Of a stretch of DNA of 64,000 nt, positions 10,418 through 22,587 are shown in pieces. A model generated the notes under the pieces. It saw only the letters and a program-made list of their open reading frames with translations. It was not told where the DNA came from and searched no databases. The stretch comes from Hydrogenophaga sp. (GTDB taxonomy: Bacteria; Pseudomonadota; Gammaproteobacteria; Burkholderiales; Burkholderiaceae_C). Where the stretch lies: assembly GCF_014773545.1 (NCBI RefSeq), contig NZ_SDDV01000001.1, forward strand, positions 186,001 to 250,000. The letters are read 5' to 3'. Numbering within the stretch: the first letter of the stretch is position 1; the number at the start of each line of letters is the position of its first letter. Position numbers and translations under genes: made by a program.

Positions 10418-11802
10418 CTCTGTTCCAGCCACGTCTGCAACACGTGCATGTGCTTTTGGGTGGCGCCGCCGTGTTCGGCGTAGAACGCTTGGGCGCCGGC
10501 CATGGCGCTGGCGTAGGCGCTGCGATCGGTCAGCAGTTTCAGCAGCGCGGTCGACAGGCTGGCAATGTTCATGTGCTGTTGCAGCACGCCCGCAGCCAGC
10601 GCTTCTACGCCGGGGTATTCGATGCCCCAGATGCTGGGGCCGACCATGACTGGTTTTTTAAGCGCCAGCGGCTCGATCACGTTGTGCGCGCCCAGTGGCA
10701 CGAACGATGCGCCCACTACCACCACCTGTGACAGCGCGAGGTAAAAATACATTTCACCCAGCGAATCACCCAGCAACACGTCAATGCCATACATGTCGGG
10801 GGCATCGGGCCTGGCCTGCAAGCTGGCATCGAGAATAAGGCTGCGCCGCGCCACGCGCAGCCCAGCAGTTTGAAACAATTGCGCCACCGCATCGAAACGT
10901 TGCGGGCTGCGCGGCACGTAGACGAACAGTGCGCGCGAAAACCCAGCCTGCGCCAGTCCGCTTTGTACCTGTTCAAAGGCTTGCATGAAAAGTTCGTCTT
11001 CGCCTGCGACGGCGCTGGCAAAACAGACCACCGGGCGCCGGTCCAACCCCCATTGCCGCAGCAGCACTTGGGCGCAGGCAAGCTGCTGCGGGGCCACCGG
11101 CAGGTCAAAACGCGTTTCACCCGCAACCAGCACCCGCTCACAGCCCACTTGTCGAAAGCGCTGAGCGTGCGTTTCTGACTTGCACAGCACCAACTCGTAG
11201 GCTTGGAACAGCGCGGCTCGAAAGCCACCCCAGCGCTGGTCACGGACGATGCTTTTTTTCGGGTACTGTGCGTTGACGATACACAGCGCCACGCCCTGGC
11301 GGCGCAGCGTGGTCAGCAGCACCGGCCAGGTGTCAATCTCGGTCATGATGGCCGCACGCGGGCGCACCTGCCGAATCAGACGGCGCACCACCCAGCCAAG
11401 CTCAAAAGGCATGAAGGCGACCTGCGCCCGACCTGCGGCAATGGATGGCTCAAACAACTTTTGTGCTGCACTGCGTCCAGCCGGTGTGACGGTGGTTATC
11501 AGCACCGGGTAGCCCGCAGCCAGCAGCGCATGAACCAGCGGCGCGGCACCGCGAATTTCACCCATCGAGGCCGAGTGCACCCACAGCGGTCGGTCCAGCG
11601 CAGTGTGCGTGCGGCCCCAGCGCTCGCTCCAGAATTGACGGTACAGCGGTTCGCGCCGCCCGCGCCGCCACAAAAAAAGCAGCACCAGCGGCAGCAGCAG
11701 ATGCCACAGGGCTTCATACAAACCAATCAGCAGCGATAGGCGCCAGTTGGGCGGGAACGGACGCGCCGGGGGTAAGGCGGTGGACGGCAGAGGCAAAGCC
11801 AT
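10414..11802 (-). CDS. Kdo-transferase-like glycosyltransferase (WaaA/KdtA family), copy 1
   Basis: A 462-residue WaaA-family glycosyltransferase. An N-terminal hydrophobic helix (about residues 23-45) and basic linker precede the Glycos_transf_N block with LWVHSASMGEIRGAAPLV (conserved Gly-Glu at 81-82), then AIMTEIDTWPVLL and IVNAQYPKKS. The C-terminal nucleotide-binding half has the variant VVGASFVPLGAHNVIEPLAL instead of the usual GGSxxxxGGHNPxE. It is first in a two-gene operon with copy 2 (4-bp overlap). It may be a bona fide Kdo transferase or may add a related sugar; specificity cannot be read from sequence. The start at 11802 gives the usual short N-terminus. Confidence 0.82.
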   Translation of the reverse strand: MALPLPSTALPPARPFPPNWRLSLLIGLYEALWHLLLPLVLLFLWRRGRREPLYRQFWSERWGRTHTALDRPLWVHSASMGEIRGAAPLVHALLAAGYPVLITTVTPAGRSAAQKLFEPSIAAGRAQVAFMPFELGWVVRRLIRQVRPRAAIMTEIDTWPVLLTTLRRQGVALCIVNAQYPKKSIVRDQRWGGFRAALFQAYELVLCKSETHAQRFRQVGCERVLVAGETRFDLPVAPQQLACAQVLLRQWGLDRRPVVCFASAVAGEDELFMQAFEQVQSGLAQAGFSRALFVYVPRSPQRFDAVAQLFQTAGLRVARRSLILDASLQARPDAPDMYGIDVLLGDSLGEMYFYLALSQVVVVGASFVPLGAHNVIEPLALKKPVMVGPSIWGIEYPGVEALAAGVLQQHMNIASLSTALLKLLTDRSAYASAMAGAQAFYAEHGGATQKHMHVLQTWLEQR

Positions 11803-11958
11803 GGTCAGAAGCAGACGGCGCGGGCACCGCCGGACGCAGGTGGAAACAAGCCTTCAGTATATTGATCCGGTCACGTGCTGCTTCGTATCGAGTCACCACG
11901 GCAAGGGCGGCCTTGGGCCGTGGCAGGCGCAGAGCGTCAACCGCTGCGGCTCCAACCT

Positions 11959-11999
11959 GAAGTCCCGGATGACTCGCTTTCGAGGTCATGCGGGACTTC
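11959..11999. terminator. Long imperfect hairpin at the end of the alk-like operon
   Basis: GAAGTCCCG (11959-11967) pairs with CGGGACTTC (11991-11999). After one G/G mismatch, ATGAC pairs with GTCAT and TCG with CGA around a CTTT loop. It lies 65 bp past the leftward stop of the aldehyde dehydrogenase gene and 157 bp before the start of the next leftward gene. No T-run follows, so it could be a weak terminator or a processing or boundary structure. The 262-bp gap holds nothing else recognisable. Confidence 0.4.
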
Positions 12000-12064
12000 G
12001 TATCAGTGAAAGCTACACGGTCAAAGAGAACTCAGCCTTCGAATTTGACATGAATTTCTCGTCC

Positions 12065-13801
12065 TCAGCCACGCAGGGCATTGACGAAAATTCTTGGCAG
12101 TTTGGTCCAACCAGGTTTGAACTGGAAATCGGTCAAGAGACGGCCAATCACATCTTGCCGCCGGTTGGTGACGAACCAAGGTGGCCGAGGAAGGAGAGTC
12201 GGGTGCAGTGAGAGCAAACTGCGCGGGAATGGCCGCCAGGGGGCGGATAGGACGGTGCGCTCCGTTCCTTCAAGCATGAAGGTGTTGTGCACCGTTCCAA
12301 CACCGGATTGCGGATCGCGTGACGAGCCGCCGGGAAATCCCCCCCAGGGACATGGAGCGAGCAGGAATCCCAATCCCGTCCAAGCATTCACGGCGATGGT
12401 GCCGTAGCGCAGCTTCTGAAGCAGTTCTTCAAAGCGTTGACAACCGATCTCTCGCACAGTCTTGGGGTGAATCAGAATATTTGCCCCCAGGGTGCCGTAC
12501 AAGCGGTCATTGGCGTACTCAATGGCCGCTTCAAGGTACGACTCCGCATCCTTGTATTCGAGGGACTTCATTGCCAACGCCGTGCCGAAGACTTCGTGCT
12601 GCGCCAGCCAGGACTCATCGCCCCGATCCATGTCCGCAAGAACGCACGCGGGCGCAAGAGGCCCACGGTCGATCGCGTCCGAGCTTCCGGCGTGGGCAGC
12701 AAACTCTCCGATGCGCTGCTCGTTGCCTGGGTAGTAGGCCTCCCGCTGCCCATAGCGCGACATGACTTTGGACACGCTGGCCAAAAGTTTGTCCGTGTGC
12801 CGCCAGCCACGAGGCACGATCAAGACTTGACATGCCACGCAGTTAAAGCCAGAGTTGTGCAACTTTTGAGTGGCTATGTGTTCTGCCTGAAAGCGGATGT
12901 CCGCGCTCGACCACGGCCCGGGCACCACAATGGTGGGGCAGACTGCGCCCAGCTCGGACGTGATCTTTCGATGGTTCTTCGGCGTATTCGCAGCCTTGTT
13001 GCGGGCGCCCTCGTCTGCGGCGCCCCAGACGATGGCATCGTGGGTGGCCTTTGCGCCGGTAATGTGGATTTCCTCCACCAAGGGATGCCCGCACAGGTAG
13101 GCGCCCACGGCGCCATCGCCGCGAACGATGCGTAGGGCATCACATTCGATCAGGGGCCGCAGGGCCGCCTTGAGATAGTCGGTCAGGTAGTCGTTGACCG
13201 GATTCATCTTCAGCAAAACCACCTGATTCTCGATGAACAGCTTCTGGAAAGCATCGAGAGGCGAAATGGCCGCAATGTTGCCTGCGCCCAAGACCAAGGC
13301 CACTTTGCCGTGCCGCTGCTCGGGTGGGATGTCATAGGCGAGCGCCGCGTGTTGATCGACGTTGACCTCGGAGATTCCCTTTTGCATCCAGACTTCGGCA
13401 GAAACACCGGAAAGGAGCAGCCGATCCCAGATCGAATGAGGCACGACGCCTACCGACAACTGACCATTTTTGAGGCGTCGCAAATGCAAGTGAGCAAGGA
13501 ATTCCTTGCGATCGATGGCAGCGAGCGTGTGCATCAACCCGTTGCAGGCGGCCATGAGAGCGAAGGGACCGGACATCCACTCCTCCCCAGCCAGCGGCGA
13601 CGCATGCGCAATGCGCTTCTTCCGGGCAGCCGTCTGCACCCATCCCTGTGCAACCTGCATCAGCGCCGGCTTGATACGTCCGAGAATGGCAATCCGATCG
13701 GCGACCGAGGTTTTTGCCCATCGATGCTTGGCTGCATCCAGTGCCTGCAAGTCCTGATCCAACAGGGTCTGAACATCGAAATTCGGTAGATCAGCCCCCA
13801 T
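12065..13801 (-). CDS. NAD(P)-dependent aldehyde dehydrogenase of the alk-like operon
   Basis: A 578-residue ALDH-superfamily enzyme that would oxidise the aldehyde made by the AlkJ-like enzyme to a carboxylic acid. The nucleotide-binding segment VALVLGAGNIAAISPLD is near 168-184, the general-base motif ELGAVCP has Glu at about 283, and the catalytic Cys lies in NSGFNCVACQV near 317-327. The C-terminal ~70 residues (PPWFVTNRRQDVIGRLL...) are an extension found in a long ALDH subgroup, not in classical AlkH. The ATG at 13801 shares a base with the alkK stop (TGATG), implying coupling; a GTG one codon earlier is the only alternative. It is the last gene of the operon. The assignment is by family and context. 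Confidence 0.88.
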   Translation of the reverse strand: MGADLPNFDVQTLLDQDLQALDAAKHRWAKTSVADRIAILGRIKPALMQVAQGWVQTAARKKRIAHASPLAGEEWMSGPFALMAACNGLMHTLAAIDRKEFLAHLHLRRLKNGQLSVGVVPHSIWDRLLLSGVSAEVWMQKGISEVNVDQHAALAYDIPPEQRHGKVALVLGAGNIAAISPLDAFQKLFIENQVVLLKMNPVNDYLTDYLKAALRPLIECDALRIVRGDGAVGAYLCGHPLVEEIHITGAKATHDAIVWGAADEGARNKAANTPKNHRKITSELGAVCPTIVVPGPWSSADIRFQAEHIATQKLHNSGFNCVACQVLIVPRGWRHTDKLLASVSKVMSRYGQREAYYPGNEQRIGEFAAHAGSSDAIDRGPLAPACVLADMDRGDESWLAQHEVFGTALAMKSLEYKDAESYLEAAIEYANDRLYGTLGANILIHPKTVREIGCQRFEELLQKLRYGTIAVNAWTGLGFLLAPCPWGGFPGGSSRDPQSGVGTVHNTFMLEGTERTVLSAPWRPFPRSLLSLHPTLLPRPPWFVTNRRQDVIGRLLTDFQFKPGWTKLPRIFVNALRG

Positions 13802-15441
13802 CACTGCATGCTCTCCGTGGTGTTGCCGGTCAGGAGGCTTGCGTAGGCTTCGCGGAGCCTGTTCTTGAGCACCTTGCCCGTGCCACTGAGCGGCAGCGCG
13901 TCAACGAAGACGGCCTTGTCGGGGATTTGCCAGTCCGGCAGGCGTCCTTTGAAGAAGGCCAGAAGGTCCGCTTCGGACACGTCCGCACCTTGTTTTTTCA
14001 CGGCGACCAAGACAGGGCGTTCGTCCCACTTCGGGTGGGGCACACCGATAGCCGCCGCGTTGGCGATGTCGGGATGCCCGATGGCGATGTTCTCGACCTC
14101 GACCGATGAAATCCACTCTCCACCGGACTTGATGATGTCCTTGGAGCGGTCGCGGATGATCATGTAGCCGTTGGCATCGAGCGTGGCCACATCACCGGTG
14201 TCAAACCAGCCGTCGTCGGTCAGCGCGCTGGATTCGGCGCCGAAGTAGCTGCTGACGACCCAGTGTCCCTTGATCTGTAGTTTGCCCTGGTTTTTTCCAT
14301 CGTTCGGCAAGACAGCGCCGGTGTCATCAACCACGCGCAGTTGAACGCCGTAGGGCGGTCGTCCTTGCCCCAGTCGCAGTTCGCTCTGCTGCTGAGGATC
14401 GAGGTGGAGGTGGCGGGCCAGCGGTTGATTCAGAGTGCCCAGCGGACTCGTTTCGGTCATGCCCCAGGCGTGGATCAACTCGATACCGAACTCGTCCCGA
14501 AACGCAGCGAACATCGACGGCGGCAGTGCCGAGCCGCCAACGACGGTGCGCTTCAAGCTCCTGGGCCTGGTGCCGCGCGAGCGCAACGCCGCCAGCAGTC
14601 CCATCCAGATCGTAGGAACGCCAAGTGCCAGCACCACTTCCTCGTTGTCGATCAGGGCGGCGAGACTGGCACCGTCAAGGTTCGGGCCGGGTAGCACCAA
14701 CTTCGCTCCCTGCGCCGCCGCAATGTAGGGTATGCCCCAGGCATTGACGTGGAACATGGGGACAACAGGCATGACCGTATCGCGGGCCGAGATGCCTAAG
14801 CCGTCTGGGCTATTGCCCGCCAGTGCATGCAGCACGGTGGAACGGTGGCTGTACAGAACACCCTTCGGATGGCCCGTCGTGCCAGAGGTGTAGCACAGCG
14901 ACGAAGGCAGATCCTCGTCAATGCTTGGCCACGGGTAGCCGGCATCGCCCGAGGCGACCACCTCATCGTAGAACTGCAAGCCATCCAACAGGCCCGATGC
15001 CTCCTCATCGCGTGGCCCCATGAGGATGACGTGTTTGACGGTGCTCAATGCCGACCGCAGCTTGGCCACGATGGGCAGAAAGGTTCGGTCGATGAACAGC
15101 ACCTGATCTTCGGCGTCGTTGACGATGTAGGTCAGGGTGTCGGCGGACAGGCGCGGATTGACCGTGTGGCACACCATGCCTGCACCAGAAACGCCGAAGT
15201 AGATTTCCAAGTGGCGCCGGTTGTTCCAGGCGATGGTCGCGCAGCGCTCACCCGATTGCACACCCAGTTTGGCCAACGCCGACGACAGGCGTCGCGCATT
15301 GATATCGACTTGGCCCCAGGTCGTGTGCTCAATCCCGCCCGTGGTGTTGACAGAGACGACCGGCGTATCAGCGTGGTAACGCGCAGCATGGGCGATGAGA
15401 CTGGAGACGAGCAAAGGCTCGCGCATCATTTTTCCGAGCAT
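13801..15441 (-). CDS. alkK: Medium/long-chain acyl-CoA synthetase AlkK
   Basis: A 546-residue AMP-forming acyl-CoA synthetase that activates the fatty acid from alkane oxidation for beta-oxidation. It strongly resembles AlkK of the Pseudomonas OCT plasmid as I recall it, with the same length, the same N-terminus (MLGxMM) and near-identical blocks RCATIAWNNRRHLEIYFGVSG and MVCHTVNPRL. The AMP-binding P-loop YTSGTTGHPKGV, the HAWGMTE motif, GWFDTGD and the C-terminal GTGKVLKNRLRE with the catalytic Lys are intact. ATG at 15441 is chosen for the AlkK-like start and a GGAAG box just upstream; the frame is open to 15528 and would overlap alkL. It follows alkL by 13 bp. Confidence 0.95.
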   Translation of the reverse strand: MLGKMMREPLLVSSLIAHAARYHADTPVVSVNTTGGIEHTTWGQVDINARRLSSALAKLGVQSGERCATIAWNNRRHLEIYFGVSGAGMVCHTVNPRLSADTLTYIVNDAEDQVLFIDRTFLPIVAKLRSALSTVKHVILMGPRDEEASGLLDGLQFYDEVVASGDAGYPWPSIDEDLPSSLCYTSGTTGHPKGVLYSHRSTVLHALAGNSPDGLGISARDTVMPVVPMFHVNAWGIPYIAAAQGAKLVLPGPNLDGASLAALIDNEEVVLALGVPTIWMGLLAALRSRGTRPRSLKRTVVGGSALPPSMFAAFRDEFGIELIHAWGMTETSPLGTLNQPLARHLHLDPQQQSELRLGQGRPPYGVQLRVVDDTGAVLPNDGKNQGKLQIKGHWVVSSYFGAESSALTDDGWFDTGDVATLDANGYMIIRDRSKDIIKSGGEWISSVEVENIAIGHPDIANAAAIGVPHPKWDERPVLVAVKKQGADVSEADLLAFFKGRLPDWQIPDKAVFVDALPLSGTGKVLKNRLREAYASLLTGNTTESMQ

Positions 15442-15454
15442 TTTTCTACTTCCT

Positions 15455-16159
15455 TCAGAATCGGTATTCGAGGCCGGTGTGGACAACCAGAGGATTGAGG
15501 CGGATGGAAACGGACGCTGGCGGTCCACCGAGCGCAGGCAACGTGCCTGACGCCTTGGTCTTCAGAAGGAGCTTTCGCGCGTCGAAGAAGAAGGACCAGC
15601 GATCCTGAAGGGGAACGGTGAAACCAGCCTGCAAAATACCTCCCCAAGCATCGTCAACATCCAACCCCTGGATGTCGCCCCCCTTGGAACTGAAGATGTG
15701 CATATAGGTGACACCAGCGCCGACATACGGCACGAACCCTCCAGCGGGGTTGAACTTGTATACGGCGCTCAGCAGAGCGGGGCCATAGCGAACATCACCG
15801 AGTTTTCCCGTGAGCGGCGGCACCATCGTGTTGAGGGTCCCTCCAGTGGTCAACTTGACCTTGGGGGGAACCCCAAATGCGAAGTGAACGGTCCACCGAT
15901 CGGACAGGTCGTAACCGATGTCGAGCCCGAGCGTGTAGTTGTTATTGAGGTTGATTTGCGCCCCAGGCACGTCTGAACCAGCAACCGTCACTTGGGATGA
16001 CTGATCCCAGAACACGCCAACCGGCCCCGCACGCAAGGTCCACGGACTCTCCTGCGCGCTGGCGCCGCCGAAAAAGCTCATGCCAAGGAAAGCAATCCCT
16101 CCGACCACCCAAGGTCGCGCATTTTTCCTCTTGGCCTTGCAAGGCAAGCAATCTTTCAT
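15455..16159 (-). CDS. alkL: Outer-membrane OmpW-family porin AlkL
   Basis: A 234-residue outer-membrane beta-barrel of the OmpW/AlkL family, which lets hydrophobic substrates such as alkanes cross the outer membrane. A basic N-terminus and hydrophobic core end in GGASAQES, a plausible signal-peptide cleavage near residue 36. The mature protein opens with PWTLRAGPVGVFW and ends in the typical C-terminal HTGLEYRF (terminal Phe). OmpW-like strands such as GFVPYVGAGVTYMHIF and DDAWGGILQAGFTVPL are visible. It sits between the alkJ-like and alkK genes, the context expected for AlkL rather than a general OmpW. Confidence 0.93.
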   Translation of the reverse strand: MKDCLPCKAKRKNARPWVVGGIAFLGMSFFGGASAQESPWTLRAGPVGVFWDQSSQVTVAGSDVPGAQINLNNNYTLGLDIGYDLSDRWTVHFAFGVPPKVKLTTGGTLNTMVPPLTGKLGDVRYGPALLSAVYKFNPAGGFVPYVGAGVTYMHIFSSKGGDIQGLDVDDAWGGILQAGFTVPLQDRWSFFFDARKLLLKTKASGTLPALGGPPASVSIRLNPLVVHTGLEYRF

Positions 16160-16214
16160 ATCGTGTCTCCTATAAGGTTTTATTTATTGGTGTGAAAAAA
16201 TCAAAGCGCCAGAT

Positions 16215-17891
16215 TTACCCAAGCAGTACGCTCTCGTCTGCTTGGCGGTCGCTTTTTCTGGGTATCTGAACGGGGTGTCCATGTGCCCGTTTGATGAGGT
16301 CCGCAGCCTTCTCGGCGATCATGATCGTCGGCGCGTTGGTGTTGCCACTGAGCAAAGTCGGCATGATGGATGCATCGACAACGCGCAAACCTTGCAGACC
16401 ATGCACCTTCAACTCCGTATCGACCACGGCCATGTTGTCCACCCCCATCTTGCAGGTGCCGACCGGGTGGTAGATGGTGTCGGAACGTGCTCGAATGGCC
16501 TGAACCCATTGCGCATCGCTCATGTCATCGGTGATGCCGAACAGTTCGCGCCCACGGTACTTTGCCAACGGTGATGCCAGCATGATCTCTCGCGTGACCT
16601 TGGCGCCTTGCACCAAGAGCTTCACGTCTCGCTCGTCCGACAGGAAGCGTGGATCGATTCCAGGGTCGTCCAACGGATTGGGTGATTGCAGGAAAACTTC
16701 ACCACGCGAGTAAGGCCGCAGATTGCAAACGTGGCACGAGTAGCCATACCCCATGTGCAGCTTGCGCGCATGGTCGTCCACAATCGAGATCACGAAGTGC
16801 AGTTGCAAATCAGGTCGATCCACGTCAGGCGCGCTCTTGAAGAATGCAGCACCCTCGGCAAAGGGGGTGGCAAGCATGCCGCTGCCATTTTTGCGCCAAC
16901 TGGCGATATGGCCGAGCAGGTTGATCGAACCTCTCAGGCCGATGCCGAAGTTGTCCGCGTCCCGTGTGGTGTAGGCCAGGATGAAATCCAGGTGATCCTG
17001 CAAGTTCTGGCCAACACCGGGCAACTCATGCACCATGCGGATGCCGTGGTGGGTAATGTCTTCTGGGCGACCGACGCCGGACAGTTGAAGAATCTGCGGC
17101 GAACCAAAGGCGCCTGCGGCCAGAATGACTTCCCGCTTGGCCCTGACCTCGCGCTCGGCTCCGCCGGCACGGTAGGCCACGCCCACGGCGCGTTTGCCTT
17201 CGAAGATGATCCGACTGGCGCGGGTATTCGTCTTGACCGTGAGGTTGGGACGTTGCCCCCGTAGCGGATGCAGGTACGCGGCAGCGGCGGAGCAACGCTC
17301 GCCCCGGCGGGCGGCATCGTGGAATTGCGTGACCTGATACAAGCCCGCGCCTTCGTTGTCCCCGTCATTGAAATCGGCACGAAACGGGATGCCGCGCTGC
17401 TTGGCCGCTTCAATGAACGCAAGGGTGATCGGCCTGGGGCTTCTCTGCTCGGAAACATGCAAAGGGCCGTTCCCGCCGTGGAACTTGTTCGCACCAAGCT
17501 CGTTGTTCTCCGACTTCAGGAAATACGGCAGCACCGAGTTCCAGTCCCACCCTTGGCAACCCAGGTCGGCCCAGTGGTCGTAGTCCTGACGCTGGCCCCG
17601 GACGTAGAGCATGGCGTTGATGGCCGAAGATCCGCCAAGGGCACGGCCGCGCGGTTGAAAGCCCAGCCGACCATTGAGGTTGGGCTGAGGTACGGTGTTC
17701 AATGCCCAGTTATTGATCTTGCCCTTGCCTGGCATCATGGCCACCATTCCTGCCGGCGTGCGAACCAGCAATGAGTCGCCTTGTCCTCCTGCTTCAAGCA
17801 AGCAGACACTGATGCGAGAGTCTTCACTCAGCCGCGAGGCCAAGGTGGCGCCGGCAGAGCCGCCGCCTACGATGATGTAGTCGAAATTCAT
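16215..17891 (-). CDS. alkJ: AlkJ-like GMC-family alcohol dehydrogenase
   Basis: A 558-residue FAD-containing GMC oxidoreductase expected to oxidise the alcohol product of the hydroxylase at the inner face of the membrane, passing electrons to quinone as AlkJ does. The N-terminal dinucleotide fold [22 protein letters not shown] signature [19 protein letters not shown], the FAD/catalytic C-terminal segment [12 protein letters not shown] and the closing [30 protein letters not shown] all match AlkJ. ATG at 17891 begins [11 protein letters not shown]; the seven extra residues of the longer frame add nothing. It follows the hydroxylase fusion by 66 bp and precedes alkL by 55 bp in one operon. Choline dehydrogenase-type relatives exist, but the neighbours favour AlkJ. 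Confidence 0.92.
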
Positions 17892-17957
17892 AGGGTCCCA
17901 CTGCGGAGCCAATGGCTCCGAATTGAAAGAAGGAAATGGAGGGAGCAGCGACCGTAT

Positions 17958-20219
17958 TCAGGCAGTCTCCAATTCCTTATTCCATTGGCGTGGGTCGTAG
18001 GAGCGCAACGCCTTCAGGCCGCTTTTCTGGTTGGCACGCAGCGCCAACACTCTCTCCTCTGGCGTGGCGTAGCACCGATCCCACTCCATGAGCTTGGGGA
18101 TCATCATTCGCTGCCAAAGCGGCGGGATCAGCGTCATCAGAACCGTGGCGAGGTAGCCAGCCACCATCGTCGGGGCATCCGGCAGCGGCATCAAGTCCTG
18201 GTAAGGTACCTCGCCCTGGGCATGGTGGTGCGAATGCCGACTGAGATTGAACATGGCCCAGGAACTCATTCTGGCATTGGTATTCCATGAATGCCGAGGC
18301 TGTACGGGCCGATCAGGAACGCGCACCATGCCGTAGTGCTCCATGTAGTTCACGATCTCCAACAGGGACTTTCCGAACAGCCCACAAGCAATCATTGCAA
18401 GCGCGCCTGTCCACCCCGCCATCCAGCCAGCGATGACGATGAGCATCACGCTCATGAGCAACCCTCGGATATAGGCGTTGCGCAGCGAAAGCACAGCCTG
18501 GTGCTTGCGCCGGAGTCGCTCGGCTTCGATCTTCCAGGCGCTGACGTTCCCATGAATGGTTGAGGCGAGGATATGGAAGTACACGTTGCGCCCGCGGGGC
18601 GCGGTTGCCGGGTCATGTTCGGTTGAAACGTAGCGGTGGTGGCCGTAGACGTGTTCAATGGAAAACCCCACGTCGTAGCTGAAGGCAAGCAGCCAGCGCC
18701 CCACAAACTTCGACACGGGATCCCAGGTGCGGTGTGTCAGTTCATGCCCGGTCAGTGTTCCGATGAAGGCAATCAGGAAGCCGGTGTGTACGCCTCCGGC
18801 GAGGTGGTGCCAGAAACTTGTCGCCTCTCGGGCTGCCAGCACGTCGTAGCCGGTGAGATGAGTCACCCATGCGCCGAATCCCAACGGATCGCCCGGAGAA
18901 AGCGTCCAGATGTAGCTGAAAACGATCAACGCCAGCAAGGGCAGCGCAAGCCACAGTTGCGCCGTCAGTATCCACGGTGACTTGTACCCGGGCGTGCGGG
19001 TATCGTTGCCGAACAGCGCATCACCGCCAACGTAGAAGACGAGGAAGGCGAGCAGCCCCAAGCTGGTGAAGACCCCGCCCGCCAGAATGGATGCCACAGC
19101 ACCGATCCCCACCGCATGCAAAAGGAAGAACTTCAGATAGTCCAAGGTGTTGGCTGGTACACGTTCAGCGGTGGGCAAGCCGACAGCGCCATAAAACCCG
19201 GTGTGGAGCTTGGGCGTCTGATCGACGAAGCGATCCGCGTGCAGGCTCGCTTCTGCAATGCCGCGCTGGCGCAGGACAGCGACGGCCGAGTCGATCATCG
19301 CGGGCGGGCCGCACAAGTACGCCGACGTGGCCTTGCCAAGCAGTTCTGGAATGTGCTCCGTCACCAAGCCGGTGCGCCCTTCCCAGGGCTGCGAAGGGTC
19401 AGCCTCGGACAGAATCGGCACGAACCGGAAGTTCGGCCAATCGCTTTCGTAGGCCGCCATCTCGTCGAGTGCGTACAGATCCTTCTGGCTGCGCGCGCCA
19501 AACAGCACCGTCACCGGCCGCTTGTCGCCCGCGCGCTTCATGTCTTGAAGCATCGCGAGGATGGGCGCCAGGCCGCTGCCTCCAGCCATCATGAGGACTG
19601 GCTCCCGGCCTGGGCGCATGTAGAAGTGACCACCGGGGCCACGCACGGTGACCGACTCGCCCACCTGCGCCTTGTCCACGAGATGCCCGGACACCCGGCC
19701 TCCAGGCACGCGGCGCACCGTGAAACTCACCTGGCGATCATTGCCAGGCGCAGTCGAGAACGAATAGCTGCGAGGGGCATCCGACATCGCAGACAGCGTG
19801 ACCTCGGCAAACTGGCCGGCACGATAGCGGATGGGCTTGTCCAGTCGAAGGTCAATTTTTGCGATGTCGTGGGTCAGCATCTGCTTGCCGACGATGACAC
19901 CACTGACCGGAGGTCCGTCGATTGCCCCCTCTCGGTCCAGCTCGATCTTCACGTCACTGCGCAGACGGCTCTGGCAAGCTAATATGAACCCATCGGAAAT
20001 TTCTTTCTCCGTCAGCAGATAAGCCGTTTCGGTCAGTTCATCCACCTTGCCGCTCTTGAGCTTGCATTTGCAAGTTCCGCAGCCGCCGACGCGACAGATG
20101 GAGGGAATATTGATGTCCTGGCGTTGCGCCGCATCCAGCAAGGTTTCATCGGGCTGGACCGTGATGGTCTGCCCGTTGATTTCAGCTTTGTGCGCTCGCC
20201 GTCCGTGTAGGAAATTCAT
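17958..20219 (-). CDS. Three-domain fusion: ferredoxin - FAD/NAD reductase - AlkB/XylM-type membrane hydroxylase
   Basis: A 753-residue protein that appears to be a self-sufficient membrane hydroxylase. Residues 1-95 are a plant-type [2Fe-2S] ferredoxin with Cys42, 47, 50 and 82. Residues 105-335 are a ferredoxin-NAD reductase module (RSYSF at 150-154 for FAD, GGSGLAP at 213-219 and CGPPAM at 303-308 for NAD). Residues 355-753 are an integral-membrane di-iron hydroxylase. All nine histidines expected for AlkB are visible: HELTH (492, 496), HVYGHH (523, 527, 528), NYMEHYG (628) and RHSHHH (662, 665, 666). The C-terminal PKLMEWDRCYATPEER resembles XylM more than AlkB. ATG at 20219 has AGGAG upstream. 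It is the first gene of the alk-like operon; the exact substrate is inferred, not shown. Confidence 0.93.
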   Translation of the reverse strand: MNFLHGRRAHKAEINGQTITVQPDETLLDAAQRQDINIPSICRVGGCGTCKCKLKSGKVDELTETAYLLTEKEISDGFILACQSRLRSDVKIELDREGAIDGPPVSGVIVGKQMLTHDIAKIDLRLDKPIRYRAGQFAEVTLSAMSDAPRSYSFSTAPGNDRQVSFTVRRVPGGRVSGHLVDKAQVGESVTVRGPGGHFYMRPGREPVLMMAGGSGLAPILAMLQDMKRAGDKRPVTVLFGARSQKDLYALDEMAAYESDWPNFRFVPILSEADPSQPWEGRTGLVTEHIPELLGKATSAYLCGPPAMIDSAVAVLRQRGIAEASLHADRFVDQTPKLHTGFYGAVGLPTAERVPANTLDYLKFFLLHAVGIGAVASILAGGVFTSLGLLAFLVFYVGGDALFGNDTRTPGYKSPWILTAQLWLALPLLALIVFSYIWTLSPGDPLGFGAWVTHLTGYDVLAAREATSFWHHLAGGVHTGFLIAFIGTLTGHELTHRTWDPVSKFVGRWLLAFSYDVGFSIEHVYGHHRYVSTEHDPATAPRGRNVYFHILASTIHGNVSAWKIEAERLRRKHQAVLSLRNAYIRGLLMSVMLIVIAGWMAGWTGALAMIACGLFGKSLLEIVNYMEHYGMVRVPDRPVQPRHSWNTNARMSSWAMFNLSRHSHHHAQGEVPYQDLMPLPDAPTMVAGYLATVLMTLIPPLWQRMMIPKLMEWDRCYATPEERVLALRANQKSGLKALRSYDPRQWNKELETA

Positions 20220-20241
20220 TGCAGTTGTCTCCTGAAAATAT

Positions 20242-20269
20242 AAAAAAGGGATCTTGCTGTCCCGTTTTT
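20242..20269 (-). promoter_or_regulatory. A/T-armed hairpin in the leader of the hydroxylase operon
   Basis: On the transcribed strand AAAAACGGGA and TCCCTTTTTT form a nine-pair stem with one bulged base around an 8-nt loop, ending 22 nt before the ATG at 20219. The G/C pairs followed by a run of T look like a short intrinsic terminator inside the leader, so it may attenuate or stabilise the mRNA. Function is not shown. Confidence 0.45.
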
Positions 20270-20364
20270 CATGATGCATCCCTGCCGTCTTCTACCGTGA
20301 GTGCCTAAACCGACAGATATGGGTCATTTCTTGCCAACGCCTTCCGCTGCCCACAGGCATGTGG

Positions 20365-20385
20365 GACAGTCCTGACACCTGTCAA
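20365..20385 (-). promoter_or_regulatory. Inverted repeat and TTGACA box between the alk-like operon and its AraC regulator
   Basis: GACAG (20365-20369) and CTGTC (20379-20383) form an inverted repeat with a 9-bp spacer. On the minus strand the outer arm is part of a perfect TTGACA (20385-20380), a candidate -35 about 160 nt upstream of the hydroxylase ATG; no good -10 follows at 17 bp, as is common at activator-dependent promoters. It is a plausible binding site for the divergent AraC-type protein. Confidence 0.4.
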
Positions 20386-20453
20386 AGAACAGAGAGACTT
20401 GGGTGGCTCTTAGCGGCCACCGGGCGCCACAAGAACATGGAGCGAGACAAGCG

Positions 20454-21476
20454 ATGAACCCACAAACCGTTCGTATCACCTACTTACGGCAAGTTGCAGA
20501 TCAAGCGGCTGAGCTGGGCGTGGATACCGTAGCGTGGCTGGCTGTTTCCGGCCTCAAGGAAGACGACCTTGCCGATGCGTCAGCGGTGGTCGCCGTCGAA
20601 ACATTTGGAGAACTGGTCGCCAACGCCATCAGGCTGTCACGTGAGACGGGCTTCGGGGTGTTGGCTGGGCGTCGCTTGCTTCCAGCAAGTCATGGCATCT
20701 TCGGCATGGCGGCTGCGGCAAGCCGTAGCATCCGTGAAGCCATGCAAATCGTCGAGCGTTATGTCTGTCTCAGAACAGAGGTTATTGGTATTCAGACTCG
20801 GGAAGTAGATGGAAATCTGGAGGTTCGGTTTGATCCGGCAATTGGTCTTGGTTCTGCAAGCAACGCGGTGACGGAAATCGCAGTGCTTGCAGCCAAGAAT
20901 ATCGCTGACGACTTGCTTCTGGGTCGCAGCGCGTGCAATTTAGTTTGCTTCCAATTCCCAGAGCCATCTCATGCAGCACTGGCACGCGATATTTTTGGCT
21001 GCCCGGTTAAATATGACCAGAACTGGTCCGGTTTATCTTTTCCTCTTTCTGCTGCCGAAGAAATTACTCCGAAACATGATCCACTGGTACTGACAGAAGC
21101 GGTACGTATCTGTGCCGAAGAGTTGAAAAAACGGGGAACTGGCAGGAGCACAGGCTCGAAGTTGGAGAAGATCGTTCTTGAAAGACTTTCACCATTTCCC
21201 AATCTTGCCATCTGTGCGCGGCTGCTAGGCACAACGCCACGAACACTGCATCGACGGTTGATCGAAGAAGACACCTCCTACCGTGAGATAGTTGAATCCA
21301 TCAGGCATCGCATGGCGTTGGAACTGCTCCGAAAAGGGTCTTCCATCAAAGAAGTGGCCTATTTCCTGGGCTACGCAGACATTGCCAACTTCAGGCGCGC
21401 GTTTCGACGCTGGGAAGACATGGCACCGTCTGATTGGTATGCACGAGAGCATGAGCGGGCGAGTAAGTCTAGGTAA
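20454..21476 (+). CDS. AraC-family transcriptional regulator, divergent from the alk-like operon
   Basis: A 340-residue regulator with an N-terminal sensor domain of the Arabinose_bd (PF12625-like) type (about residues 15-200, including LAGRRLLPASHGIFGMAAAAS) and a C-terminal AraC double helix-turn-helix from about residue 235 (ICARLLGTTPRTLHRRL, then KEVAYFLGYADIANFRRAFRRW). Its position 234 bp from the oppositely directed hydroxylase operon suggests that it activates that operon in response to a substrate or product. ATG at 20454 is preceded by GGAG and starts the recognisable protein (MNPQTVRITYLRQ). AlkS, the classical regulator, is a different (LuxR/MalT) family, so control here has a different origin. 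Confidence 0.9.
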   Translation: MNPQTVRITYLRQVADQAAELGVDTVAWLAVSGLKEDDLADASAVVAVETFGELVANAIRLSRETGFGVLAGRRLLPASHGIFGMAAAASRSIREAMQIVERYVCLRTEVIGIQTREVDGNLEVRFDPAIGLGSASNAVTEIAVLAAKNIADDLLLGRSACNLVCFQFPEPSHAALARDIFGCPVKYDQNWSGLSFPLSAAEEITPKHDPLVLTEAVRICAEELKKRGTGRSTGSKLEKIVLERLSPFPNLAICARLLGTTPRTLHRRLIEEDTSYREIVESIRHRMALELLRKGSSIKEVAYFLGYADIANFRRAFRRWEDMAPSDWYAREHERASKSR

Positions 21477-21514
21477 TTCCTGAATCCGTGACCTCACCGC
21501 TGAGTTTGTGGTAA

Positions 21515-21867
21515 AAGGATCATGATGATCTGGTTGTTGATTTCTTCGCGGGCTCCGGCGCAACTGCCAACGCTGTGTGGAAGCTCAATTCAAAGGACTC
21601 GGTCCGACGAACGTTTTGCCTTGCTCAGCCACCTGAACCGCTGAATGCGAGCGATAAGGATCAGAAGGCGGAGGTTTTCTCGTCTTCAAGCTGGCCACGT
21701 CGAACATCCGCGCCTGGAACCCCAACCCGGTGGACCTGGTAGCCACGCTGTTCGACCATCAGGATCATCTGCTCGATGGGCGCAGCGAGTCCGACGTGCT
21801 CTACGAAGAGGGTGGTCTACTCCGCGTAGCGGCTTCGTCCAACTGGCTTTTCTACGCTGCAAGATAA
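21515..21867 (+). pseudogene. Remnant of a type III restriction-modification methyltransferase (mod), frameshifted
   Basis: Two pieces of a Mod-type DNA adenine methyltransferase are readable in different frames. From 21515 the frame gives DLVVDFFAGSGATANAVWKL, the SAM-binding FxGSG block, running to about 21680. From 21685 a shifted frame gives FKLATSNIRAWNPNPVDL and, after a short gap, DHLLDGRSESDVLY, the C-terminal block of Mod proteins, ending at a stop at 21865. The start of the gene, the target-recognition part and all of res are missing, and a stop lies just before the first piece. This is a decayed gene fragment filling the 400-bp gap between the AraC regulator and the neuA-like gene. 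Confidence 0.82.
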
Positions 21868-21876
21868 AATCCCTGC

Positions 21877-22587
21877 ATGTTGCACTCTATGCCGGCATGG
21901 ACCGCTGTTATACCGCTGCGCGCAGGTTCCAAGGGTCTGCCACAAAAGAACACCCGCTTGCTGGCGGGCAAACCACTATACCGCCACACCATCGATCAAG
22001 CGCTGGCGGCGGGCGCGCAGCGCGTGCTGGTGACGACCGACATCCCGGAGGTGCTTTGCGCTGATTTTCCCGCTGCGGTGCAACTTCTGCACCGCAGCGC
22101 CGACTTGTGTGGCGACGCTGTTCCCATGGCGCCAGTTATGCTGCATGCGCTGCGCAGCGCGGCTTGCCAGGGTACCGTGGTGTTGTTGCAGGCCACCTCG
22201 CCGCTGCGACGGATCGGTGACATCGAAGCTGCGCTGGCGCTGTTCGGTTCAGGCATTTTTGAGCTGGTCATGTCGGTCACTCCGGCCGATCGGGGCGTGC
22301 TGAAGTGGGGCACCTTGCGTGGCAACCACTTCCAGCCATTGTCTGATCCGGACTACTGCTTTGCCAACCGGCAAAGCCTGCCGCCCGTGGTGCGGCCCAA
22401 CGGCGCCATATACGTCATGCATGCCGACTGGCTGCTGGCGCGCGGCAGTTTTGTCAGTGGACGCACGGGTGCGATTGAAATGCCGGCGCAGTACAGCTAC
22501 GACATCGACACGCTGGAAGATTTTGCCCGCTGTGAATCTCTGTTCGAATCCCTGCAGCCCGCTGCCGGGCGAACCGGGCAGGGCTGA
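21877..22587 (+). CDS. neuA: Acylneuraminate cytidylyltransferase (CMP-sialic acid synthetase)
   Basis: A 236-residue nucleotidyltransferase that activates sialic acid or a related nonulosonic acid as the CMP sugar. The CTP-binding motif IPLRAGSKGLPQKNTRLLAGKP is near the N-terminus, followed by VLLQATSPLRRIGDIEAAL and YDIDTLEDFARCE, all typical of NeuA/PseF/LegF proteins. It is somewhat shorter than some family members. An in-frame ATG at 21889 is an alternative start, and the ribosome-binding site is weak. It begins a run with a glycosyltransferase-like gene (1-bp gap), neuB and neuC. The presence of NeuB and NeuC of the sialic-acid type, with no Leg or Pse dehydratase or aminotransferase nearby, favours N-acetylneuraminate as substrate. 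Confidence 0.88.
   Translation: MLHSMPAWTAVIPLRAGSKGLPQKNTRLLAGKPLYRHTIDQALAAGAQRVLVTTDIPEVLCADFPAAVQLLHRSADLCGDAVPMAPVMLHALRSAACQGTVVLLQATSPLRRIGDIEAALALFGSGIFELVMSVTPADRGVLKWGTLRGNHFQPLSDPDYCFANRQSLPPVVRPNGAIYVMHADWLLARGSFVSGRTGAIEMPAQYSYDIDTLEDFARCESLFESLQPAAGRTGQG

Follow-up and report, generated by a model that had tools for sequence, protein, structure and literature searches.

How a membrane di-iron hydroxylase might obtain its electrons when the genes around it include none for rubredoxin is the question raised by an operon of Hydrogenophaga sp. (contig NZ_SDDV01000001.1, positions 186,001 to 250,000; this stretch of 64,000 nucleotides is called the window, and positions below are counted within it). 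Its leading gene encodes a 753-residue protein in which ferredoxin, reductase, and hydroxylase share one chain, and a Pfam scan of the operon proteins revealed no rubredoxin. Our analysis of the sequence points with high probability to a self-sufficient medium-chain alkane hydroxylase which, together with its catabolic operon, would have been acquired on mobile DNA. The initial annotation of this DNA had likewise proposed an alkane-type operon headed by a ferredoxin-reductase-hydroxylase fusion, and this is still the best reading. The fusion architecture itself is already known; our additions are an active-site residue pattern, a set of stepwise relatives, and a mapped island.

We infer the following route for substrate and electrons. 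NADH (reduced nicotinamide adenine dinucleotide, NAD) would reduce the flavin adenine dinucleotide (FAD) of the middle domain, from which electrons would pass to the N-terminal [2Fe-2S] cluster and on to the histidine-ligated di-iron site of the membrane domain. That site would activate O2 and hydroxylate the terminal carbon of an n-alkane (about C8-C12). The alcohol would be oxidized by a GMC dehydrogenase and the aldehyde by an aldehyde dehydrogenase (ALDH), after which a ligase would form acyl-coenzyme A (acyl-CoA) for beta-oxidation, while an OmpW barrel would aid uptake and an AraC protein would turn the operon on. The locus would then represent a compact alkane pathway, obtained by horizontal transfer, in which the first enzyme seems able to work without a rubredoxin system of its own.

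An intact fusion of ferredoxin, reductase, and hydroxylase

17958..20219, minus strand: ferredoxin / FAD-NAD reductase / AlkB-type di-iron hydroxylase fusion, 753 residues (Pfam; cofactor and histidine motifs; PDB relatives 1KRH and 8F6T/8SBB)

The protein lies inside an open frame at 17958-20279 on the minus strand, and its start was set at the ATG at 20219, where an AGGAGAC...TGC(A/G)ATG element terminates in all six aligned sequences. Four Pfam domains were found above their cut-offs: Fer2 (residues 14-86), FAD_binding_6 (109-200), NAD_binding_1 (210-312), and FA_desaturase (469-679). The ferredoxin domain is of the plant type, with cysteines C42, C47, C50, and C82 for its [2Fe-2S] cluster, and the reductase carries RSYS at 150, GGSGLAP at 213, and CGPP at 303. 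The hydroxylase displays the histidine motifs HELTH (492), EHVYGHH (522), EHYG (627), and RHSHHHA (661), and all nine histidines of these four motifs pair with histidines of the AlkB structure sequence 8SBB in our alignment; the initial annotation had likewise counted all nine. In FtAlkB, two irons are bound by nine histidines from four motifs, according to passages of the structure paper (PMC10110569). A frame error splitting the protein, a concern voiced at the outset, was not seen, and ten further one-chain homologues span 746-796 residues (mechanical open reading frame lengths).

The nearest solved sequence to the first half is benzoate dioxygenase reductase 1KRH (expect value, E, 4e-56), and the only solved relatives of the hydroxylase half at E 0.001 are the alkane 1-monooxygenases 8F6T (E 6e-40) and 8SBB (E 5e-36). 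By domain, the ratio of nonsynonymous to synonymous substitution rates (dN/dS) against related fusions of Tepidicella, Stenotrophomonas, and Pseudoxanthomonas (L003, L004, and L005) was 0.03-0.19; with L003, the ferredoxin and reductase domains gave 0.03 and 0.15, respectively.

Recombination within the fusion was also considered, an idea prompted by unequal identity to L003 (82% for the hydroxylase half, 92% for the reductase half). It was rejected: a 30-residue profile gave no clear breakpoint and dN/dS indicated purifying selection, with uneven synonymous rates (dS 0.89, 0.35, and 0.63).

Active-site residues and trees

Does the hydroxylase belong with AlkB or with the xylene monooxygenase XylM? 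Sequence identity places it about equally near to AlkB 8SBB (35% over 266 residues) and to XylM of pWW0 (36% over 247 residues). Trees were built from 42 rows and then from 37 rows without L001, L056, L057, L059, and L075, duplicate loci being excluded from both. The 11 fusions fell on one side of a branch (98/94 with 42 rows, 96/92 with 37), where they were joined by two reductase-hydroxylase gene pairs, L070 and L046 (100/99 and 99/99), and next by the standalone hydroxylases L071-L074 (87/29 with the long-branch rows, 100/99 without). The seven AlkB rows (five plasmid rows annotated alkane 1-monooxygenase and two from the PDB) formed a group of their own at 100/100. The seven XylM rows, three of them annotated xylM and four labelled XylM-like because a XylA-like gene is their neighbor, grouped with three unlabelled plasmid rows, also at 100/100, and neither group contained fusions. 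These trees place the hydroxylase in a clade separate from those AlkB and XylM rows that were tested. Such a tree had been proposed at the outset as a check; it resolves the clade, but the approximately unbiased (AU) test leaves its nearest kin undecided, rejecting neither AlkB (p 0.276) nor XylM (p 0.102), and the residues are of the AlkB type.

Those residues are the three active-site positions L274, E281, and L318 of FtAlkB, as named in the structure paper (PMC10110569). Leucine, glutamate, and leucine (L/E/L) occupy the corresponding positions in 11/11 fusions, both reductase-hydroxylase pairs, all four of L071-L074, and L066, as well as in six of the seven AlkB rows, that of Methylibium having V at the last position. 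All seven XylM rows have V or F, then Q, then I. Other patterns occur in the rows that remain: I, A, or V followed by Q/I in L058, L060, and L061; F/Q/L in L040 and L076; and L/E/I in L075, where another residue takes the place of one iron-ligand histidine. The L/E/L pattern, a correlation, provides our strongest evidence favoring an alkane over a methyl-aromatic substrate, and L/E/L versus V/Q/I may serve as a testable discriminator of alkane- and xylene-type hydroxylases where trees fail to resolve them.

In the reductase tree, fusions and pairs were split from XylA and 21 other reductases (89/95), with the very long row L040 on the fusion side. Eight XylA rows grouped with L066 and L075 (86/90), the reductase half of the fusion lying outside. 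The fusions do not form one group in this tree because L070 pairs with L065 (98/86), which could reflect either one fusion followed by a later split or more than one fusion event. The initial description of the protein as XylA joined to an AlkB/XylM hydroxylase holds for its XylA-like layout (41% identity of the reductase half to pWW0 XylA), but not for its placement, the reductase falling outside the XylA group and the hydroxylase outside both groups.

That layout, the near-equal identity to XylM, and an AU test that does not reject a grouping with XylM would all suit a xylene-monooxygenase-like enzyme, in which XylA has been fused to a XylM-type hydroxylase that oxidizes methyl groups carried by aromatics or by other molecules, terpenes for example. 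We nevertheless regard this as very unlikely, given the separate XylM group and the L/E/L rather than V/Q/I active site. The XylMA system of the TOL plasmid pWW0 resembles the window protein in that a membrane di-iron hydroxylase is supplied by a ferredoxin-reductase protein. It differs in having two genes, hydroxylase then reductase, as well as other active-site residues and other neighbors: benzaldehyde and zinc alcohol dehydrogenases, as opposed to the fatty-acyl type ligase and GMC dehydrogenase of the window operon. In addition, published members of the fusion class oxidize alkanes, by the accounts given in the relevant parts of PMC8918992 and PMC12903215.

The XylMA gene order also occurs in genome G038 (L066), as a hydroxylase-then-reductase pair; its hydroxylase shows 42% identity and shares the L/E/L residues. 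The alkane hydroxylase reading of the window protein can further be set beside a rubredoxin-type AlkB cluster on a Marinobacter salarius plasmid (L051), which shares the L/E/L residues and has ALDH and GMC genes nearby. There, a rubredoxin gene and a LuxR-type regulator stand beside alkB; the window operon has the fused ferredoxin-reductase instead, along with a regulator of the AraC family.

Related fusions, gene pairs, and standalone hydroxylases

A search for the same domain order in other genomes, suggested in the initial annotation, yielded ten other one-chain fusions. Five came from a scan of a genome collection (5/5 confirmed loci) and one from the Polaromonas plasmid pPNAP01; the remainder came from overlapping genome samples, namely G010 (one of 59 genomes besides the window's own), G154 and G200 (two of 398 others from the order, E <= 1e-60), and G463 (one of 397 others from the phylum, E <= 1e-60). 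Six plasmid records covered 80% or more of the query, and a single gene was present only in pPNAP01; the records H2, H3, and H4 hold two genes, and H5 and H6 show two annotated features. The ferredoxin cysteine pattern is kept in 11/11 fusions. An AraC gene adjoins the fusion in nine of the ten other loci, the tenth (L065) having a LysR gene instead.

Downstream of the fusion, L003, L004, L005, and L045 carry GMC, ligase, and ALDH genes at 83-94% identity, and L006 has the GMC gene alone of these three. None of them was detected at E 1e-15 in the examined stretches of L007, L065, L067, and L068, the downstream side of L068 ending at the contig end; in L069, a 33%-identical ligase gene adjoins the fusion on the opposite strand. 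The fusions of L007, L065, and L067, bare of these genes in the stretches examined, would be compatible with a membrane enzyme that desaturates or hydroxylates fatty acids or lipids, with fused electron transfer and no hydrocarbon role, as would the Pfam name FA_desaturase. This is a highly improbable explanation: at E 0.001 the hydroxylase has just two solved relatives, both alkane 1-monooxygenases, its set of AlkB histidine motifs is complete, and the alkane-type operon is conserved in near relatives. A grouping of the domain with fatty-acid desaturases, named at the outset as a refuting result, was probed only weakly: in the 42-row tree, the long-branch rows L057 and L059, annotated as fatty acid desaturases, fell on the AlkB side, apart from the fusions. 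The genome containing the window (2.21 Mb, rated 99.98% complete) has only one other FA_desaturase-family match, a separate desaturase.

Regarding the origin of the fusion, its nearest non-fused relatives are the pairs L070 and L046, in which reductase precedes hydroxylase as in the fusion. The reductase stop lies 29 bp from the hydroxylase start in L070 and 75 bp in L046; in the fusions, a linker some 30 residues long connects these two ends. The standalone hydroxylases L071-L074 belong to genomes G654, G639, G683, and G447. Rubredoxin (PF00301) scored above its cut-off twice in G447 and twice in G678, which carries the L070 pair. It was not found in G639 or G683, and G654 gave only one match, below the cut-off and with stops, so that three of the four standalone relatives come from complete genomes in which no intact rubredoxin was found. 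These three genomes (G654, G639, and G683) also yielded no relative of the reductase half at E <= 1e-20 and have six or seven Fer2 matches each; G447 has one such relative, without the ferredoxin part. The electron donor of the standalone enzymes in these three of the four genomes is likely not rubredoxin.

We tentatively propose, at somewhat less than even probability, that the fusion is the end stage of an AlkB-type lineage that lost rubredoxin before fusing, then formed reductase-hydroxylase pairs, then lost the stop between the two genes, and finally gathered catabolic genes and spread on mobile elements. The two rubredoxins in the genome of the L070 pair and the lack of a single fusion group in the reductase tree argue against this succession. 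If it is true, AlkB-type chemistry is not tied to rubredoxin, and surveys of alk genes anchored on rubredoxin miss a class.

Two of the standalone AlkB-like hydroxylases, L072 and L073 (G639 and G683), adjoin AraC genes in single-contig genomes in which no rubredoxin was found. Close to the L070 pair, at L070:10533-15967, lie two MalT/LuxR-type regulators, separated from the pair by one other gene; this is the regulator type of AlkS.

Published fusions and the source of electrons

Fusions of this kind had been thought to occur in genome surveys, with doubt as to how well they were characterized. Their occurrence is indeed known, and the doubt falls away, since the fusion type has already been characterized, as passages of PMC8918992 and PMC12903215 indicate. 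A 2022 review states that a three-domain enzyme, ferr_ferrR_AlkB, was suggested by Nie 2014, and that the authors of the review expressed it and found it active, with no alkene epoxidation found (PMC8918992). The Williams enzyme (2021/2022), as told by PMC12903215, needs NADH alone and prefers C10-C12. Like the window protein, ferr_ferrR_AlkB has an N-terminal ferredoxin and a ferredoxin reductase fused to an AlkB-type hydroxylase; as far as the review's description goes, we found no architectural difference, the window protein likewise having ferredoxin and reductase in the hydroxylase's chain and a complete nine-histidine site.

A 754-residue oxidoreductase-AlkB fusion, clustered with alkJ, alkH, and alkK, is described in a 2026 paper on an integrative and conjugative element of Pseudomonas putida EM2-4; in the portions of that report relevant here, the cluster supports growth on C8 and C10 but not on C6, C12, C14, or C16, and mutants without alkB lose growth on octane, the AlkB part thus being required (PMC12903215). 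Compared by description, the EM2-4 cluster and the window operon both combine the fusion with alcohol dehydrogenase, aldehyde dehydrogenase, and CoA ligase genes and with mobile DNA. Unlike the EM2-4 cluster, the window operon lies between waaA and a pseF-like gene on its contig and has an OmpW gene between the GMC and ligase genes. A further relative is the operon on plasmid pPNAP01 (NC_008757) of Polaromonas naphthalenivorans CJ2, with AraC, fusion, GMC, ligase, and ALDH genes and with fusion halves and enzymes 80-85% identical; it differs in an AraC protein that is 66% identical and in an OmpW gene at the operon end (26%).

Several observations weigh against a self-sufficient alkane hydroxylase encoded in an operon of its own. 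Besides the AU test described above, a cassette at the junction of the EM2-4 fusion halves apparently leaves octane growth in place, to go by the text and the legend of Fig. 2 (PMC12903215), so the covalent link, and perhaps the donor, may be dispensable in that host. The same text reads the first half as a desaturase, despite noting its oxidoreductase similarity, and expects host electron donors (PMC12903215). The window genome has one rubredoxin gene, on contig C14, and another BenC/XylA-like reductase, on contig C12 (34%). Finally, the stretch 11700-12200 yielded neither a promoter-like nor a terminator-like site. Judging from the text of PMC12903215, the label of an AlkB fused to a desaturase is probably a misread ferredoxin-reductase half.

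The junction insertion, together with the rubredoxin and the second reductase of the window genome, suits an alkane hydroxylase fed mainly by host ferredoxin or rubredoxin systems, with the fused domains not its main electron source. We consider this unlikely, as the ferredoxin cysteines are retained throughout the fusions, the dN/dS values against L003 are low for both ferredoxin and reductase, and the three-domain enzyme is reported to be active (PMC8918992) and to need NADH alone (as PMC12903215 relates it).

The second reductase of the window genome (G000:C12:214257-215243) is a BenC/XylA-like ferredoxin-reductase, 34% identical to the reductase half.

A survey of alk clusters that required alkGHJ near alkB reports clusters only in alpha- and gammaproteobacteria (PMC9526415). 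A fusion-type operon, being without alkG, would escape such a screen.

Downstream genes and regulator

16215..17891, minus strand: GMC flavoprotein alcohol dehydrogenase, AlkJ-like, 558 residues (Pfam GMC_oxred_N/C; Marinobacter match)
15455..16159, minus strand: OmpW-family outer-membrane barrel with a putative AlkL-like role, 234 residues (Pfam OmpW)
13801..15441, minus strand: fatty acyl-CoA ligase, AlkK-like, 546 residues (Pfam AMP-binding; NCBIfam PRK06187; start from relatives)
12065..13804, minus strand: divergent aldehyde dehydrogenase family protein, 579 residues (Pfam Aldedh, 54 bits; ELG and GFNC motifs)
20454..21476, plus strand: divergent AraC-family regulator, 340 residues from the ATG common to relatives (Pfam Arabinose_bd and HTH_18)
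20297..20337, minus strand: block TTG(G/T)CA..TGTC..TTT in the divergent promoter region (alignment of six upstream regions)

On the minus strand the order is fusion, GMC, OmpW, ligase, and ALDH, with gaps of 66, 55, and 13 bp and then a 4-bp overlap, computed with starts reset from relatives (GMC at 17891; ligase at 15441, not 15528). The names AlkJ, AlkL, and AlkK for the GMC, OmpW, and ligase proteins are applied by analogy. The initially proposed set of AlkJ, AlkL, AlkK, and ALDH homologues is present, although two of the labels are loose: the protein called AlkL shares 26% identity with its OmpW counterpart in the homologous Polaromonas operon, and the ALDH shares 23% identity over 312 residues with the ALDH adjoining a Marinobacter alkB. 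At E 1e-15, the OmpW protein had no match in L003-L005 or L045. The GMC protein is 46% identical over 237 residues to a partial GMC protein adjoining a Marinobacter alkB. The ligase exceeds the NCBIfam cut-off for PRK06187, a long-chain-fatty-acid-CoA ligase subfamily, its top score being to PRK07008, below the cut-off of that family. The ALDH has ELG at 284 and GFNC at 319-322, and its best solved match reaches E 0.0011.

With its weak Pfam score and distant structures, the ALDH (12065-13804) represents a divergent branch, yet it is 83-90% identical in four related operons.

The AraC protein scored 134 bits against NCBIfam CypR and QhpR, far under their cut-offs of 500 and 250. The conserved block at 20297..20337 is possibly a site for this regulator.

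The operon lies on an acquired island

12036..21478, no strand assigned: DNA shared with operons of Tepidicella, Stenotrophomonas, and Pseudoxanthomonas; acquired island (blastn blocks; operon-free site in relatives)

The operon is a horizontally acquired island of about 9.4 kb between waaA and the pseF-like gene. By blastn, 12036-21478 is shared with L003-L005 at 85-89% in two blocks, the OmpW gene being the gap between them. For the operon-free site, waaA was searched in 60 genomes at E 1e-80 and matched in 19 others; from these, eight same-genus loci were searched by tblastn with single proteins. No operon protein had a match in any of the eight stretches. In six of the eight, waaA and the pseF-like gene adjoin, with 163-190 bp between match ends; in the other two, the pseF-like match is another one (34%) and lies at a distance of over 1 kb. 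No convincing repeats were found around the island.

L003, L004, and L005 mutually share 10.7-11.0 kb at 96.4-97.5% identity, a degree of likeness that appears to reflect recent wide transfer. In the NCBI classes, Tepidicella belongs to the Betaproteobacteria, and Stenotrophomonas and Pseudoxanthomonas to the Gammaproteobacteria. Transposase genes lie within all three loci and a relaxase gene beside the operon in L005, and the operon of L045 is on a plasmid typed as conjugative. Between the island and the pseF-like gene, at 21477-21877, lies a broken DNA methylase-like remnant (PF01555, 22.6 bits, below the cut-off of 26.7).

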